IMG/VR virus record: IMGVR_UViG_3300036985_000851
Coordinates: 1-32,978 of that record
Source of the DNA: a virus
DNA: 32,978 nt
Strand: one strand, 5' to 3'
The notes under the pieces were generated by a model that searched no databases, was not told the DNA's origin, and was given only the letters and a program-made list of their open reading frames with translations. Of this stretch, positions 864 to 7,779 are shown in pieces. A program made the translations under genes and the position numbers. Within the stretch, counting starts at the first letter, position 1. Each line of letters starts with the position of its first letter.

Positions 864-1144
864 TGAAAAAATACACTAAGGAGTATTTTAAATATTTTGG
901 ATATGGTATAGAGGATTTCGTGCCTTGTGAGGTCTGTGGTAGTAAAGCGGTTGATATCGCTCATATAGTAGCGCAATCTAAATTTGGCAGTAAAAGAAAG
1001 GATGAGCAAGACTTAATAACTAATATTGCCGCTTTATGCAGAAAGTGTCATTACGATTATGACTTTAAAAATAAATGGACTACCGAAGAAATGATTGAAA
1101 TACATTTAAATTATTTAAAACTATGGAAATCTGGAAAGACATAA
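863..1144 (+). CDS. HNH endonuclease
   Basis: This 93-residue protein has a compact HNH fold. Cys22-x2-Cys25 and Cys59-x2-Cys62 would hold the structural zinc; DIAHI gives the first catalytic His34, Asn54 lies in the LITNIAALC segment, and His63 completes the motif. Stand-alone phage HNH proteins of this size often help the terminase in head-full or cos cleavage, but here the terminase is more than 5 kb away, so a general nicking or recombination role is as likely. It overlaps the preceding gene by one base and the next gene by 22 bases. Confidence 0.85.
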   Translation: MKKYTKEYFKYFGYGIEDFVPCEVCGSKAVDIAHIVAQSKFGSKRKDEQDLITNIAALCRKCHYDYDFKNKWTTEEMIEIHLNYLKLWKSGKT

Positions 1145-1593
1145 AGGATTATGAAGGCATATATATGATATCAAATTACGGTAATATTAAAAGTAATAGA
1201 GGTATATCAAGAGGATATAAAACCGAAAAAGGATATTATAGAGCGAAGTTGTATAAAAATAATATACCTAAAAGTGAATATGTACATAGGTTAGTATCAA
1301 AAGCATTTATTGAAAATGAATTTAATAAAACTGATGTCAATCATATAGATAATAATCCTTTAAATAATAATATTTCAAATTTAGAATGGTGTACTCATAA
1401 AGAAAATATGGAACATTCTGCTAGACAAGGAAGAGCAAAAGGCGGAGATTCTAAAACAGTATTAAATCTATTAACTGGAATATATTATCGTTCTATTAAA
1501 GAAGCAGCAAATAGTATAAATATGAAAAGTAATACTTTGCAATACAAACTATTAGGTAAAAGGAAAAACAATACTAATTTTATTTATGCTTAA
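1123..1593 (+). CDS. NUMOD4/HNH homing endonuclease
   Basis: This 156-residue protein begins with the NUMOD4 signature (EIWKDIKDYEGIYMISNYG, residues 2-20). It then carries an HNH_3-type core with VHRLV around His55 and VNHIDNNPLNNNISNLEWC at residues 72-90, and ends with a NUMOD1-like DNA-binding helix region (TVLNLLTGIYYRSIKEAA and onward). This is the usual architecture of a free-standing homing endonuclease that cuts DNA lacking it and spreads by repair. It overlaps the unrelated HNH gene by 22 bases. No intron or intein is seen around it, so it is probably a free-standing selfish gene. Confidence 0.88.
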   Translation: MEIWKDIKDYEGIYMISNYGNIKSNRGISRGYKTEKGYYRAKLYKNNIPKSEYVHRLVSKAFIENEFNKTDVNHIDNNPLNNNISNLEWCTHKENMEHSARQGRAKGGDSKTVLNLLTGIYYRSIKEAANSINMKSNTLQYKLLGKRKNNTNFIYA

Positions 1594-1787: not shown

Positions 1788-2549
1788 ATGCAATCTCAGT
1801 TAATTAGTATCGGTAAATTAAAAAATAATAGTGGACAGATAGAAGGATTGCCTAAGAACCCAAGATTATTGAAGGATGATAAGTTTAAAAAATTAGTTAA
1901 GTCAATTAAGGATGACCCTGAAATGTTACAACTAAGGGAAGTTATTGCTTATGAATTAAATAATGAGCTAATAGTTATTGCAGGTAATATGAGATTAGGT
2001 GCTTGTAAAGAATTAGGAATAAAAGAAATACCTGTTAAAATACTTTCTGAAGATACATCAATAGAAAAATTAAAAGCCTATACAATTAAAGACAATTTAG
2101 GATATGGTGAATGGTCTTGGGATGACATTGCAAACGAATGGGATATGGAACAACTTGAAGACTGGGGAATGGATTTGCCTTTACAATCTGAAACGGAGAA
2201 ATTATCTTTAGTAGAATTTGAAAACATATATTTTGAACCTACCGAAAAACCAAACATTAATTTAATAGATTGCATTGATACTCAATTATATGATAAGAAA
2301 ATATCTGAAATCGAAAAAAGTTTATTAAGTCAAGAACAAAAGAATATATTAAAATTATTTGCACAAAGGTTTTTAAAAATTGATTTTGAGAATGTAGCTA
2401 ATTATTATTTTTTTAATGCTTCAGATGATGAACAATTAATTATCGAAAGGTTAAGATTAGTTCTTACTGATAATGGTATTAATGGATTTATTGAAGATGA
2501 TATTTTAAAAATACATAAAACCATTGATTTATGGGAACAGATTTTATAG
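1788..2549 (+). CDS. ParB/Srx-fold protein with C-terminal extension
   Basis: Residues 1-130 of this 253-residue protein form a ParB/sulfiredoxin-like N-terminal domain: NPR at 24-26, a VIAYELNNELIVIAGNMRLG strand-helix with the phosphate-binding GNMR box at 66-69, then ELGIKEIPVKIL and a tail ending EDWGMDLP. Phage members of this fold often sit beside DNA-modifying enzymes and may act on or bind DNA rather than segregate it. Residues about 150-253 resemble the C-terminal tail I recall from ParB-type DNA methyltransferases of Bacteroidota (LLSQEQKNILKLFAQRF, NYYFFNASDDEQ), but no methyltransferase motif (DPPY, FxGxG) is present. It overlaps the TAGT-like gene by 19 bases. Confidence 0.7.
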   Translation: MQSQLISIGKLKNNSGQIEGLPKNPRLLKDDKFKKLVKSIKDDPEMLQLREVIAYELNNELIVIAGNMRLGACKELGIKEIPVKILSEDTSIEKLKAYTIKDNLGYGEWSWDDIANEWDMEQLEDWGMDLPLQSETEKLSLVEFENIYFEPTEKPNINLIDCIDTQLYDKKISEIEKSLLSQEQKNILKLFAQRFLKIDFENVANYYFFNASDDEQLIIERLRLVLTDNGINGFIEDDILKIHKTIDLWEQIL

Positions 2550-3451
2550 ATATATTTATACCTTCATATCATAGACCTAACCAATTAAAAACAGTATATT
2601 TTTTTAAAAATATAGGATATGATATTAAAAAGTTGCACGTTTTTATAGATAGTGAAGCAGATGATTTATTGGAATATCAAAGTGAAAGTGAAAAAATAGG
2701 ATTTAATTTATATGTTTTTGATATGGATATAGCAAGGGAAAGATATGATTATATCCATCGACCAAGCATAAGCCGTAGAAGTGCTGGACAATCAAGGAAT
2801 ATGTTTTATGACAAAGCAAAAGAACTTGGCATTAAATTTTATATATCGCAAGATGATGACACGGTCGGATATGAGATAAAATATAAAGGAAAATACAAAG
2901 GGATGGCATCATTAGATGATATTAATAATGTATTTTTAGGAGTAAAAGACTTTATGACAAAGCAAAAAATTGGTTTATTTGGAATTTCTCAAACTGGTGA
3001 TTTTATTGGGGGGAATAATAAAAAACTTTTGAGAAATAAAGTAATGAATACGACATTTATATTAACTGATTATATTTATAGAGGTGAAAGAGGAGTGCAA
3101 GATAATGATACAAGTATGTTTGTATCTATAATGAATAATGGATTATTTACTGGAAGTTTAGGTGATGGGTTAGTTTTGAAACAAACTGCAAGCGCAAAAC
3201 AAAAAGGGGGTTTAACTGATTTATATAATGAATGTAAATTATTAAACAAAGCATTAATTTGTCCTATTCAATTTCCATCATCTATTCAAGCAGAAAAACA
3301 AGAAAAAAACGGTGGTAGGTTACACCATCATATAAAAATAAAATATCTATACCCTAAACTTATAAAAACAACTAAACGGAGTAATATTGCTTGGGATACA
3401 TACATAGAAGATTATCCTTTTACTAATGAACCTAAACGAGTAAAATTATAA
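2531..3451 (+). CDS. TAGT-like (TET-associated) GT-A glycosyltransferase
   Basis: This 306-residue protein looks like a GT-A fold transferase. It has an N-terminal IFIPSYHRPNQLKT strand, LHVFIDSEAD, an SRRSAGQSRNMF helix, and a QDDD acidic metal-binding motif at residues 107-110 after IKFYIS. A second acidic cluster GERGVQDNDTS is at 185-195, followed by a conserved-looking TASAKQKGGLTDLYNECKLL block. The pattern matches what I know of the TAGT/GREB1-related phage family, proposed to transfer sugars onto modified DNA bases. ParB-fold neighbours are known for that family. No enzyme making hydroxymethylated bases is seen here, so a DNA substrate is inference. Confidence 0.6.
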   Translation: MGTDFIDIFIPSYHRPNQLKTVYFFKNIGYDIKKLHVFIDSEADDLLEYQSESEKIGFNLYVFDMDIARERYDYIHRPSISRRSAGQSRNMFYDKAKELGIKFYISQDDDTVGYEIKYKGKYKGMASLDDINNVFLGVKDFMTKQKIGLFGISQTGDFIGGNNKKLLRNKVMNTTFILTDYIYRGERGVQDNDTSMFVSIMNNGLFTGSLGDGLVLKQTASAKQKGGLTDLYNECKLLNKALICPIQFPSSIQAEKQEKNGGRLHHHIKIKYLYPKLIKTTKRSNIAWDTYIEDYPFTNEPKRVKL

Positions 3452-3963
3452 TGAACAAGTGTAACGATATAGTGCTGGAGATATATAACCATCCCGACCT
3501 AATAAAAGCGATAAGCAAAACAAAGCCTGAATCAATACAAGACGATTTAAGGCAAGAAATAGCAGTTAGCTTATTACTTCAGCCTTGTGATAAGATAAGT
3601 GCCTTATTCGCTTCTAATAACTTATTAAGGTATGCTATTAAGATATGCTGGTTTATGGCTACATCAAAAACAAGTGAATTCTATTATAAATACAAAAAGA
3701 GTGATTTACTAAAGGCGGTTGAGTATTTCAATAGTCAATTAGATTTACCTATTATCCCCGAAAGTTTAGCAGCGGAGGCAACAAAAGCACTTACAAAGAA
3801 TAATATCAATATCGAAACCGACCACGAAATAAGAATATTTAATAAATACGTAGAACTTGGAAGCAATAGAAAGGTTGCTGAATATTACGGTATACCAGTT
3901 AACCACGTTTGCAATATTACTAACAAAGTAAAAAAAGAATTAAAATGTATATTATTACAATAG
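3451..3963 (+). CDS. Sigma-70-like transcription factor
   Basis: This 170-residue protein has the layout of a minimal sigma factor. Residues about 25-90 give a region-2-like helical block (DDLRQEIAVSLLLQ and later SEFYYKYKKSD). After a variable linker, a C-terminal helix-turn-helix (YVELGSNRKVAEYYGIPVNH then VCNITNKVKKELK) resembles region 4. Such proteins recur in phages of Bacteroidota and may direct host RNA polymerase to late promoters. Its start overlaps the TAGT stop by one base, and it sits upstream of the structural operon, which suits a middle-to-late switch. The assignment rests on layout and HTH only. Confidence 0.5.
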   Translation: MNKCNDIVLEIYNHPDLIKAISKTKPESIQDDLRQEIAVSLLLQPCDKISALFASNNLLRYAIKICWFMATSKTSEFYYKYKKSDLLKAVEYFNSQLDLPIIPESLAAEATKALTKNNINIETDHEIRIFNKYVELGSNRKVAEYYGIPVNHVCNITNKVKKELKCILLQ

Positions 3964-4184
3964 CAGCCTTTACGTTTGCTTATTACTTCATTAACGTATT
4001 TAATGGGCATATCATACTAAAGCGGATATTTAAGATTCCTTTAGTAAAAAGATTACGACCTTTCGATTGTATTCAATGCCTTACTGTATGGAGTGCTTTA
4101 GCATTCTCTTTCTTACCTATTCATTTAGTTGAAACAATAGCAGTAATATTTGCAGCAGGGTTTATATCAATTAAGATAAAATGA
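3945..4184 (+). CDS. Small membrane protein with a CxxC motif
   Basis: This 79-residue protein has an N-terminal hydrophobic segment (IITIAAFTFAYYFINVF), a basic loop (RIFKIPLVKRLRPF), then DCIQCLTVWSALAFSF and a last hydrophobic stretch ending KIK. It would span the inner membrane about three times, with the CxxC pair at the start of the second segment. I recall related short proteins with a PFDCxxCLT pattern in Bacteroidota phages but no function. It lies between the sigma-like gene (19-base overlap) and an unknown gene (ATGA overlap). It could be an exclusion or glycan-related membrane factor. Confidence 0.6.
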   Translation: MYIITIAAFTFAYYFINVFNGHIILKRIFKIPLVKRLRPFDCIQCLTVWSALAFSFLPIHLVETIAVIFAAGFISIKIK

Positions 4185-4411
4185 CAAAAGCACTAATTAT
4201 GAATAACATGAAAAGACAAAAAACAAAATTAACTAATAGGGAACATATTTTAATAAATATGCTTTCTTTATGGATTAAGTCAGGAAAAGACCCTTCTGAA
4301 ATTAAATTGTTATGGATGGAAGAAGCTAATAATAAACAAGAAAAATATAGAAGCAAATTGCTATTTGATAGGTGTTATCAGTATTTGACAAAAGTAGATA
4401 CAAAAGCATGA
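4181..4411 (+). CDS. Hypothetical protein, 76 residues
   Basis: I do not recognise this family. The protein is short, charged and predicted mostly helical, with basic KRQKTKLTNREHILIN near the N-terminus and EIKLLWMEEANNKQEKYRSK further on. The start at 4181 forms an ATGA overlap with the previous stop; internal ATGs at 4199 and 4208 are weaker alternatives. The end overlaps the next start as ATGA at 4408-4411, which supports it being a translated link of the cassette. Confidence 0.55.
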   Translation: MTKALIMNNMKRQKTKLTNREHILINMLSLWIKSGKDPSEIKLLWMEEANNKQEKYRSKLLFDRCYQYLTKVDTKA

Positions 4412-5397
4412 ACATAATAGGATTAACACATAAGGAAAGCGGATGCGGTTATCATAGAATAATGTTACCATTAGGATATATGGATAACATAAAGGGCTAT
4501 GTAACTAATTATATAACTGAAGATAAGACCGATGGATGGGATATATTACTTTATAATAGAATGTGCGGATATGATGTAGATTGGAAAAAAACTAAGGAAC
4601 TACTTGGATGTAAGGTAGTTATGGACATTGACGATTATTGGGCGTTACCGTATAATCATATTAATTACGATACCTATGAACAAGCAGGGGAAAGAATAGA
4701 AAGAAATTTAATGCAGGCAGATTTAGTAAGTGTAACAAATCAAGCATTATATGATAAGGTTAAACAGTTCACCGACAAAGCGGTTATACTTCCCAATGCG
4801 TTACCTTATGGAATAAATCAATTTCACGATGCAAAAGTTACATCTAATAAAGTAAGGTTATTTTGGTGCGGTGGTGTAAGCCACGAGAACGACATTAAAA
4901 TATTAAGAGAACCACTAAAAAGATTAACTGGTAATATCCAAATGGTAATGGGTGGTTATAATGATACCGACCCTTTGACTAAATCAATTTGGGATAGGAT
5001 ATTTAGTATGTTTGTTGGCAAGAATCCATATTTAAAATTACATTCAACAAGTCCGAACGAATATATGGATATGTACAACTATGCTGATATTGTTTTGATA
5101 CCCTTAGAAGATAGTGGATGGCACGCGTGCAAAAGCAATTTAAAAATACTTGAAGCAGCGGCAAAGAAATTACCTGTTATATGTTCAAACGTAGCACCTT
5201 ACAATGTAGATATAGATGCACCTGTATTATGGGTCAACAATCAAAAAGACTGGTTTAGGTATATTAATTTATTAATCAATAATCCCAGCCTAAGGGAACA
5301 ATTAGGCAATGAACTTTATGCGTGGGCGACCAAGAAATACAACTTTAAAGAAATTAATCAAAGAAGATACGATGCTTACGAAAGCATACTCAAATGA
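4408..5397 (+). CDS. GT-B fold glycosyltransferase, GT4-like
   Basis: This 329-residue protein has a two-Rossmann-domain layout. The N-terminal half contains GCGYHRIMLPLGYM, WDILLYNR and VVMDIDDYWALP (residues 71-81). The C-terminal half has PNALPYGI, LFWCGGVSHENDIKIL, an ADIVLIPL strand and KSNLKILEAAAKKLPVICS, with Glu249 in the position of the nucleotide-sugar-binding E-x7-E region of GT4 enzymes. The ATG at 4408 is chosen because it overlaps the previous stop as ATGA and starts directly at the first strand (MNIIGLTH). The acceptor is unknown; phage glycans, virion proteins and modified DNA are all possible. It is one of three glycosyltransferases in 3.7 kb. Confidence 0.8.
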   Translation: MNIIGLTHKESGCGYHRIMLPLGYMDNIKGYVTNYITEDKTDGWDILLYNRMCGYDVDWKKTKELLGCKVVMDIDDYWALPYNHINYDTYEQAGERIERNLMQADLVSVTNQALYDKVKQFTDKAVILPNALPYGINQFHDAKVTSNKVRLFWCGGVSHENDIKILREPLKRLTGNIQMVMGGYNDTDPLTKSIWDRIFSMFVGKNPYLKLHSTSPNEYMDMYNYADIVLIPLEDSGWHACKSNLKILEAAAKKLPVICSNVAPYNVDIDAPVLWVNNQKDWFRYINLLINNPSLREQLGNELYAWATKKYNFKEINQRRYDAYESILK

Positions 5398-5602
5398 AAT
5401 ATTTGATAAGCACAGGCACTTTTACGATTTCTACCATAAGACAGATACAATAGTAAACTTTAACCACGATATTCAAAAAGAGTTACTAGATGAATACCGT
5501 AGGGTAAAGGATGAGTATTATCATTATAATACTAACTGCACTATTTGTGTAGTGGATTTTTTAAATTTAATCTATCGATGGTATGACAACCTTCAAGCAT
5601 AG
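5372..5602 (+). CDS. Hypothetical protein, 76 residues
   Basis: The start at 5372 (MLTKAYSNEIFDKH) is preferred to the upstream 5309 ATG because the latter would overlap the glycosyltransferase by 89 bases; 5372 cuts this to 26. The protein is helical, with HRHFYDFYHKTDTIVNF and a C-terminal NTNCTICVVDFLNLIYRWYD segment containing a CxxC. I recall similar short proteins beside glycosyltransferases in Bacteroidota phages, but no function. It overlaps the next gene by 20 bases. Confidence 0.55.
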   Translation: MLTKAYSNEIFDKHRHFYDFYHKTDTIVNFNHDIQKELLDEYRRVKDEYYHYNTNCTICVVDFLNLIYRWYDNLQA

Positions 5603-6248
5603 CGGAGCAACTGGAGATATAATATTTAGTTTACCTACAATTAAAAAGATGGGTGGCGGTACTTTGTATATTTCACCCTATAACTTACAAAGGGCTGAAA
5701 GCATAGCGCCATTAATTAAATTGCAGGATTATATCGATGATGTTATCATAGCAGATAATATGCCTTTGGTAGATGTTGACTTAGATAAGTTCAGAGTATA
5801 TGCAGGGCATCACTCAAATTTGATTGAGGCGCATTTAAAGGCGCAAGGATTAGAAGATAATAGCTGGAGGGATGGATGGTTAAGGATAGAAGATAAGAAT
5901 CCTATAATCGACTACACGTATTCGGTAATTAATACAGGCGCAAACTATAAAGACCCGAACTTTGATTGGGGTAAAGAGATTAAATATTTACTAACGTTAA
6001 GCGATAGGGTATTTTATTTGGGTTATAGGGGTGAATTTGATTTATTAAATACTACTGAAGCAGAATTTTTTGAATGTGATTTTTTAACTGCCGCTGAAAT
6101 GATATATCACGCCAGAATGTTTACAGGTGGATATTCAGCCTTATCAACGATAGCAATGGGGTTAGGTATTAATTATAGGATGGTTCAAGCACCCGACCAT
6201 ACTTGCAGCAGTCTATTAATGGAAAGAGAAAAAATAATAAATATATGA
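5583..6248 (+). CDS. GT9-like (heptosyltransferase-fold) glycosyltransferase
   Basis: This 221-residue protein opens with FKHSGATGDIIFSLPTIKKM, the glycine-Asp-leader strand-helix seen in heptosyltransferase-type GT-B enzymes. It later shows VFYLGYRGE and a MFTGGYSALSTIAMGLG block (residues 179-195), equivalent to the donor-site S/T-G-x-x-A-L-A region of that family. It is shorter than bacterial WaaF/WaaC proteins (about 320-350 residues), so a lobe is reduced. The stop overlaps the terminase small-subunit start as ATGA, so it is co-translated with packaging genes. The substrate cannot be told from sequence. Confidence 0.6.
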   Translation: MTTFKHSGATGDIIFSLPTIKKMGGGTLYISPYNLQRAESIAPLIKLQDYIDDVIIADNMPLVDVDLDKFRVYAGHHSNLIEAHLKAQGLEDNSWRDGWLRIEDKNPIIDYTYSVINTGANYKDPNFDWGKEIKYLLTLSDRVFYLGYRGEFDLLNTTEAEFFECDFLTAAEMIYHARMFTGGYSALSTIAMGLGINYRMVQAPDHTCSSLLMEREKIINI

Positions 6249-6628
6249 GTTTAGAAAAACAAGCACATGGAGGGTTTTTAAATCGATACGAGAAAGGAGC
6301 AGCATGGAAGGGAAACCGTAATGGCAGACCTAGAAAGTATATAACTGAATTAGCGCCAATGGGTTATAAGAACGCACAGGTAATGGATTGCATTCAGGTA
6401 TTAATGGCAATGACTACAAAAGAACTGCAAGAGGTTTTAAAAAATGAAGATAGCACAGTACTTGAAAGGACTTTAGCTAATGCCCTATTAAAATCATTAA
6501 GTAAAGGTTCATTGTATTCCGTAGATACTTTATTGAGCAGGGTATACGGTAAGCCAAAAGAAACTACGGCAGTAATACAAGATAGTAAAATAGAAGTGGT
6601 TTTTGTTAAGGGTAAAACTATTTTATGA
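6245..6628 (+). CDS. Terminase small subunit (TerS) candidate
   Basis: This 127-residue protein begins MSLEKQAHGGFLNRYEKG at 6245, with an ATGA overlap to the previous gene; the upstream in-frame ATG at 6203 would overlap needlessly. The N-terminal KGNRNGRPRKYITELAP resembles the basic DNA-binding lead of DUF5681-like TerS proteins, and the middle is helical (VLMAMTTKELQEVLKN, LERTLANALLKSL), suited to oligomer formation. It directly precedes TerL with an ATGA overlap, the usual TerS place. TerS would recognise the pac or cos site and feed DNA to TerL. Confidence 0.7.
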   Translation: MSLEKQAHGGFLNRYEKGAAWKGNRNGRPRKYITELAPMGYKNAQVMDCIQVLMAMTTKELQEVLKNEDSTVLERTLANALLKSLSKGSLYSVDTLLSRVYGKPKETTAVIQDSKIEVVFVKGKTIL

Positions 6629-7779
6629 TTTTAGAGTTACCAGAAGCGCATACAAATCAATTAAAAATCTTACAATCAAAAGCAAGGTTTAGAGTTGTTA
6701 TGTGCGGGAGAAGGTTTGGAAAGTCTGAATTAAGTCAGGTTGAAATAATAAGTAATGCAATTCAAGGGATGAACGTTGCGTATATTACACCGACCTATAA
6801 ATTAGCAAAAACATTCTTTGAGAAATTAACACAAAGTTTACCATTTGAAAACAACAAAAGCGATTTAACTATTCATTTTCCCAATTTGGGAACTGTTGAA
6901 TTTTTTACAGGTGAAAGGCTGGATAATTTAAGAGGTAGAAAATTTCATTTAGTAGTAATAGATGAAGCAAGTTTTATCCCTGACCTTGAAGATGGCTGGT
7001 TAAATTCAATCCGACCAACGTTAACCGATTATCAAGGTCGGGCATTGTTCCTATCTACACCACGAGGTAAGAACTATTTTTATTCACTTTACATGAAGGG
7101 AGGGCAAAAAGATTGGGATAGTTTTAAATTTACTACTTATGACAATCCTTATATTTTAACTTCAGAGATTAACGATGCAAAAGCACAGTTACCCAATGCA
7201 GTATTTGAGCAGGAATATATGGCTAACCCAATGGAAAACGCAGCAAACCCTTTTGGTAGTGAACATATTAATAAATGTGTAAAGTTCATAAGTACCAATG
7301 AACCAATGTATTACGGAATAGATTTAGCAAAGTCTTTTGATTGGACTGTTATTATTGGATTAGATTCTAACGGTGATGTTTGCCATTATGAAAGATTTCA
7401 AAAAGATTGGCTTCAGACAAAGGAAACAATTAAAAACATACGAAAGCATAAACATATTTTTATTGATAGTACTGGAGTAGGTGATGCAATAGTTGAAGAT
7501 TTGCAAAAGTATTTTAATGACATGACAGGGTTTAAATATACATCAACCAGCAAGCAACAGTTAATGGAAAGCCTTGCATCATCTATCCATAAAGCAGAGA
7601 TAGGATATCCGATTGGTGCAATCAAAGACGAGTTAGAAATATTTGAATACCTATTTACTTCAACTGGTGTACGGTATTCTGCGCCATCAGGCTTTCACGA
7701 TGACTGTGTAAATGCTTTAGCTTTAGCCAATAAATGCCGCATAGAAAACAAGGGCAGCGGACAATATCATTACATTTAA
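6625..7779 (+). CDS. Terminase large subunit (TerL)
   Basis: This 384-residue packaging motor shows all expected parts. The ATPase has Walker A CGRRFGKS (27-34), Walker B LVVIDEAS with Asp113 and Glu114, and the coupling motif FLSTPRG (142-148). The RNase H-like nuclease domain has YYGIDLAKS with Asp233, HIFIDSTGVGD with Asp281, and FHDDCVNALALA with Asp359/Asp360. It drives DNA into the prohead and cuts concatemers. It is a compact TerL, near the short end of the family. The next gene begins 31 bases later, and unusually it is a tail gene rather than the portal. Confidence 0.95.
   Translation: MILELPEAHTNQLKILQSKARFRVVMCGRRFGKSELSQVEIISNAIQGMNVAYITPTYKLAKTFFEKLTQSLPFENNKSDLTIHFPNLGTVEFFTGERLDNLRGRKFHLVVIDEASFIPDLEDGWLNSIRPTLTDYQGRALFLSTPRGKNYFYSLYMKGGQKDWDSFKFTTYDNPYILTSEINDAKAQLPNAVFEQEYMANPMENAANPFGSEHINKCVKFISTNEPMYYGIDLAKSFDWTVIIGLDSNGDVCHYERFQKDWLQTKETIKNIRKHKHIFIDSTGVGDAIVEDLQKYFNDMTGFKYTSTSKQQLMESLASSIHKAEIGYPIGAIKDELEIFEYLFTSTGVRYSAPSGFHDDCVNALALANKCRIENKGSGQYHYI

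Follow-up and report, generated by a model that had tools for sequence, protein, structure and literature searches.

An exchangeable slot beside phage terminase genes pairs a ParB-fold protein with a candidate DNA glycosyltransferase

Exchangeable phage methylases, ParB proteins next to modification enzymes and the ParB-like protein DpdB have all been described (PMC7468147, PMC12783734, PMC12839542). Phage ParBc proteins stand beside DNA-modifying enzymes in the CmoX/CmoY phages and are fused to them in ParB-methyltransferase proteins, and their role has been stated to be unknown (PMC12783734). In the Dpd system, a ParB-like ATPase, DpdB, works with the base-modifying enzyme DpdA (PMC12839542). 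In phages with flexible modules, islands encoding orphan DNA methyltransferases are exchanged while the core genome stays stable, and a ParB gene is marked on the genome map of one such phage (PMC7468147). As to glycosyltransferases, PF20691 enzymes of T-even phages act on DNA sugars, and solitary TAGTs of unknown activity have been counted in 288 of 753 phage genomes (PMC13216743). Two puzzles, the ParB proteins found beside modifiers (PMC12783734) and the solitary TAGTs left without a job (PMC13216743), meet in the locus described here.

This locus belongs to a phage contig that we refer to as the window: the whole stretch of 32,978 nucleotides analysed (positions 1-32,978 of IMG/VR record IMGVR_UViG_3300036985_000851), which is linear and possibly incomplete. 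The window and its sister phages share with the CmoX/CmoY phages and the ParB-methyltransferase fusions a ParB N-domain protein beside or fused to a DNA-modifying enzyme; unlike in those systems, enzymes of several unrelated chemistries share one N-domain at one exchangeable slot, and the protein's tail differs from enzyme to enzyme. The window TAGT resembles the T2/T6-like and TET-type TAGTs in belonging to a GT-A family over the Pfam cut-off and in its acidic DDD motif, but no alpha/beta-GT, hydroxymethylase or TET was found alongside it, and its partner is a ParB protein adjoining the terminase. The likeness to the Dpd system, compared by description, lies in the pairing of a ParB-like protein with a modifier; DpdA and preQ0 genes fill the slot of one sister locus (L048), whereas the window is without DpdA. 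Compared with the flexible modules, exchange here crosses enzyme chemistries and breaks inside ParB at a domain border. No description of this slot was found in the open-access papers searched. Within that literature, what is new is that enzymes of unrelated chemistry replace one another behind a common N-domain, that chimaeras break at the domain border and have a tail matched to the partner, and that the association of solitary TAGTs with ParB holds in bacteria as well as in an archaeal virus.

Genes of the locus and their predicted folds

A first-pass annotation of the DNA had reported overlapping genes between a homing endonuclease and the small terminase subunit, and these are real plus-strand ORFs at the positions given there (Table 1). 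Their order is conserved across 19 sister loci, far beyond chance. The 59-aa gene on the left flank of the slot matches PHROGs without assigned function. The homing endonuclease next to it is missing from sister phages or has just 39-45% similarity there.

Table 1. Features of the locus, in window coordinates
Feature	Position	Strand	Basis or remark
NUMOD4/HNH homing endonuclease	1123-1593		beside slot
59-aa conserved phage gene	1603-1782	+	left flank of slot; 73-90% identity among sister loci
ParB gene, whole	1788-2549	+	
ParB/Srx N-domain, proposed constant adapter part	1788-2180	+	ParB/Srx fold; sister allele identity 91-94%
ParB C-terminal tail, TAGT-partner-specific	2181-2549	+	identity pattern; motif conserved in TAGT phages
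TAGT, GT-A glycosyltransferase, PF20691	2531-3451	+	Pfam; DDD motif, residues 108-110
SIG, small protein, C-terminal HTH weakly sigma-4-like	3451-3963	+	right border of slot
Membrane protein, 79 aa, CIQC motif, two hydrophobic stretches	3945-4184	+	
76-aa ORF	4181-4411	+	no sister counterpart
GT4-like GT-B glycosyltransferase	4408-5397	+	phrog_7162; alternative upstream GTG start at 4372
97-aa conserved ORF, no assigned function	5309-5602	+	homologous ORF at same place in sisters
GT9-like GT-B glycosyltransferase, second exchangeable position	5583-6248	+	WaaC fold match
Terminase small subunit (TerS)	6245-6628	+	position and conservation; family matches not strong
Terminase large subunit (TerL)	6625-7779	+	Terminase_6N E 1e-10

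The ParB fold proposed for the first gene is borne out by a match to PHROG 17622 (E 6e-42) and by a Foldseek match of the predicted model to ParB CTPases (E 8e-6). The N-domain matches both ParB CTPases and sulfiredoxin and has the N-domain fold of partition proteins; because the pTM of the model is low (0.46), we rely on this fold alone and not on the arrangement of the domains. The TAGT assignment is equally sound, the protein reaching 44.4 bits against the curated PF20691 cut-off of 27.5. Its acidic metal-binding motif, D108-D109-D110-T111, is invariant among 15 homologues, and a profile search of the PDB returned no convincing sequence match. TET-linked and solitary TAGTs were not separated in a tree with long branches, so that we draw no conclusion from it.

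The first-pass annotation had also claimed a sigma-like factor, a membrane protein with a CxxC motif and two further glycosyltransferases. For the sigma-like factor, what stands is a weak match of the C-terminal HTH to SigW or sigma70-ECF (E 0.04-0.1), of sigma-4 type; the curated sigma-70 profile was not reached (12.1 versus 42.9 bits). The membrane protein is present, with CIQC as its motif. The GT4-like enzyme is well supported by phrog_7162, a glycosyltransferase family (E 1e-62), with a Pfam score just under the curated cut-off (24.8 versus 27 bits). For the GT9-like protein, Pfam, PHROG and NCBIfam gave no family and a PDB profile search no convincing match by sequence, and its assignment stands by predicted fold: its AlphaFold2 model (pLDDT 83) aligns with the GT9 heptosyltransferase WaaC over 205 residues (Z 14.7, rmsd 3.5), GT9 heptosyltransferases score well above the other structures, and Foldseek gives E 2e-5. 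All three glycosyltransferases have the folds ascribed to them, GT-A, GT4-like GT-B and GT9-like GT-B. Since the 76-aa ORF lacks a counterpart in the sisters, we treat it as a putative gene; in its place, between the membrane protein gene and GT4, L016 and L029 have a 119-aa ORF.

Exchange at the slot and inside the ParB gene

Scanning IMG/VR with the GT9, GT4 and TAGT proteins returned phages that fall into two sets. Contigs of the first, the close sisters, carry SIG (95-99% identity), the membrane protein, GT4 and the terminase at 76-99% protein identity, and none of them has the TAGT of the window. In the other set, identity is 41-64% for ParB and 59-79% for TAGT, and SIG, GT4 and GT9 have no match. 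Phage records searched by blastn with the cassette yielded no matches, and a scan of genome contigs gave three loci only. When 19 non-identical sister loci that extend across the region were aligned, the stretches on the VRR-NUC side and those of SIG, the membrane protein, GT4 and the terminase aligned in all 19, at a median nucleotide identity of 80-87%. The ParB N-domain aligned in 12 of the 19 and GT9 in 11; the ParB tail and the TAGT aligned in none. Constant DNA thus gives way to exchanged DNA within the ParB gene, and ParB and TAGT (1788-3451) occupy an exchangeable slot.

What fills this slot elsewhere was named from one representative of each family, the remaining members being assigned by BLAST similarity or reading. 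The contents comprise an N6_N4 methylase fused to the ParB N-domain (L006, L011, L015, L041, L043, L046, L049, L056), a D12 adenine methylase (L013, L021), a C5 methylase (L050), Mom (L016, L034), other TAGTs (L007, L012, L029, L044), a TAGT-like enzyme with a Tet_JBP oxygenase (L040, L047, L057; the L040 transferase has a weak TAGT PHROG match, E 6e-5, and no Pfam match), an ABC-ATPase/GNAT fusion with GP88 (L008, L014), and a DpdA-like transglycosylase with QueC, PTPS, a QueE-like radical SAM protein and FolE (L048). Four loci have no modifier in the slot (L009, L010, L018, L045). The first-pass annotation was right to place ParB and TAGT in a DNA-modification locus. A complete-looking preQ0 set (DpdA-like, QueC, PTPS/QueD, QueE-like, FolE) is present at L048:2790-6340 and also in L051; these sets belong to a phage group of ~34 kb in which two subgroups carry them at different sites, both times behind this ParB domain.

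Exchange is also visible at the level of domains. The N-domain of the window has 91-94% identity with sister alleles that are joined to other effectors; its tail has 25-32% identity to the tails of sisters sharing that N-domain allele and 51-63% to the ParB tails of unrelated TAGT phages. Between L029 and L012, the TAGT is 94% and the tail 89% identical, but the N-domain only 61%; L046 and L041 have methylase parts that are 95% identical and N-domains that are 63% identical; L029 and L056 share an N-domain at 98%, with unrelated tails (32%). From these chimaeras and the identities in the window, it follows that tail and enzyme travel together and become joined to the resident N-domain. A motif in the tail is conserved, along with the TAGT, in proteins from E. 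coli, Lactobacillus and a haloarchaeal virus.

The first-pass annotation had treated the eight genes as one cassette that adds two or three sugars in succession. The comparison does not support this claim: every close sister has SIG, the membrane protein and GT4 at 76-99% protein identity, including those with a methylase, Mom, DpdA or nothing in the slot. Roughly half of them retain GT9. At a second exchangeable position, between GT4 and TerS (5583-6248 in the window; also L009, L029 and L051-L053), the phages carry either GT9 or a class I SAM methyltransferase, or the two together, or else a GT2 accompanied by a hexapeptide acyltransferase. In distant relatives the ParB unit and the GT4 unit come in different orders, the latter lying on the other side of the former. 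The two are separate units. Because SIG, the membrane protein and GT4, with GT9 or its alternatives, are kept whatever fills the slot, they are probably not steps of a DNA pathway.

ParB-TAGT-terminase is found in Porphyromonas phage005, in E. coli prophage-like phages, in Lactobacillus phages jlb1 and c5 and in the haloarchaeal virus HHTV-2; metagenomic phages likewise have terminase genes downstream of the pair. Among phages of Lactobacillus delbrueckii, c5 and PMBT4 possess an intact TAGT, and in their relatives Ld25A, LL-Ku, Ld17 and phiLdb the match to it is partial or broken into pieces. In Bacteroides BS-TP3, ParB occurs with a methyltransferase and in Leptospira LE3 with a GNAT protein. 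Outside this phage group, a scan with the N-domain of ParB yielded 80 loci, of which 76 have distinct proteins and 74 are assessable (two are cut by contig ends). Recognised enzyme types occur at 67 of the 74, often just ahead of the terminase, with ABC-GNAT and PAPS-reductase-like partners taken as DNA modifiers by analogy only. Among the 76 there are 36 methylase fusions, 11 loci with Mom, seven with ABC-GNAT, five with a TAGT, two each with Tet_JBP, DpdA, a PAPS-reductase-like protein and a C5 methylase, one other fusion, one in which ParB is followed by a GT4-like enzyme (L149), five without a recognised partner and the two that are cut. The PAPS-reductase/DUF3440 protein follows ParB at L179:4001-6374 and L214:3980-6562, an arrangement that in our view resembles the IbrA/IbrB pair of E. 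coli; a sulfur-based DNA modification is possible. Of 5426 complete E. coli genomes, 885 have the ParB-TAGT pair at a query coverage of 80% or more. K-12 retains short remnants only, annotated ynaK and ydaY; these Rac prophage genes (L143, 1425377-1425980) look like deletion remnants of the pair that is intact in many E. coli.

Proposed roles of the two units

We favour, with moderate confidence, a reading in which the locus consists of two units: ParB and TAGT would form an exchangeable module that glycosylates DNA and blocks restriction, and a conserved second unit would act on a surface or virion glycan. From neighbourhood, exchange and fold we infer that ParB is a recruiting factor. Its constant N-domain, probably binding nucleotide and DNA, would serve as the adapter; the C-terminal tail would pick the enzyme partner, and ParB would bring this enzyme to the DNA of the phage, either ahead of packaging or while it proceeds. 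There, by analogy with the chemistry of its family (PMC13216743), the TAGT may put a sugar on bases of replicated or packaging DNA, most likely blocking host restriction. Swapping tail and enzyme as one block would allow the phage group to change the chemistry of its DNA mark. The second unit (3451-6248: SIG, the membrane protein, GT4 and GT9 or its alternatives) probably has a surface or virion glycan as its likelier target.

TAGTs add a sugar to an existing base hydroxyl or to a base-linked sugar, and here this chemistry appears without its usual partner, as no hydroxyl-making enzyme was found. The searches covered the Tet_JBP and thymidylate-synthase families. Tet_JBP is absent from the window and from the TAGT-only metagenomic contigs searched, the same search having recovered the domain in four sister records whose slot contains it; nor was a thymidylate-synthase-family hydroxymethylase found in the window or these contigs, and a Pfam scan of the 33 other window proteins detected neither family. 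The records of Lactobacillus jlb1 and c5, LE3 and HHTV-2 have neither Tet_JBP nor a thymidylate-synthase-type enzyme, in a search partly without positive control. The acceptor of solitary TAGTs would therefore be host-supplied, an unmodified base or a target other than DNA. This last option would be realised if the TAGT glycosylated a protein (terminase, capsid or host factor), ParB taking it to the packaging complex. The missing hydroxylase in the records searched speaks for such a target, as do the constant proximity of ParB-TAGT to the terminase and the name given by NCBI to the E. coli homologue, "GREB1-related protein"; GREB1 has been reported to glycosylate a protein. We nevertheless consider it rather unlikely, since the slot is common to at least six unmistakable DNA-modifying enzyme families, a TAGT occurs with Tet_JBP in the same slot, and the T-even PF20691 enzymes act on DNA sugars (PMC13216743).

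Still less probable is that the three glycosyltransferases serially build a di- or trisaccharide on DNA. Their genes are adjacent, phage DLP3 has been reported with consecutive genes for a GT4-like enzyme, ParBc and terminase (PMC7326821), and given L149, where ParB is followed by a GT4-like enzyme, GT4 may be linked to the ParB unit. Serial addition is hard to reconcile, however, with sisters that keep GT4 and SIG while their slot makes no DNA sugar or lacks a modifier, with the variable order of the units among distant relatives, or with the independent exchange of GT9 for a SAM methyltransferase. The ParB/Srx fold, family annotations and the interpretation adopted in some phage papers (PMC7326821) would allow ParB to be a plasmid-type partition protein of a plasmid-like lysogen, standing beside the TAGT by coincidence; yet Pfam detects no ParB helix-turn-helix family in the protein, ParA was absent from the scan of 33 window proteins, and at 67 of 74 loci a DNA-modifying enzyme adjoins the N-domain or is fused with it, which makes this explanation highly improbable.

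To return to the DNA-glycosylating module, one could go further and suppose, as a speculation to which we give a low probability, that ParB/Srx N-domains are a general adapter for methylases, Mom, DpdA and TAGTs, selected by the tail, and that solitary ParB-linked TAGTs attach sugar to an unmodified base (at an exocyclic amine, for example) with no need of a hydroxylase. The proposal for ParB and TAGT is directly testable, because the pair is present in so many E. coli genomes and in cultured dairy phages. If it is true, a phage population could acquire a different DNA mark in a single recombination, by exchanging the enzyme behind the adapter. The slot suggests a common adapter for the marking of viral DNA, and a testable job for TAGTs that lack a known target.
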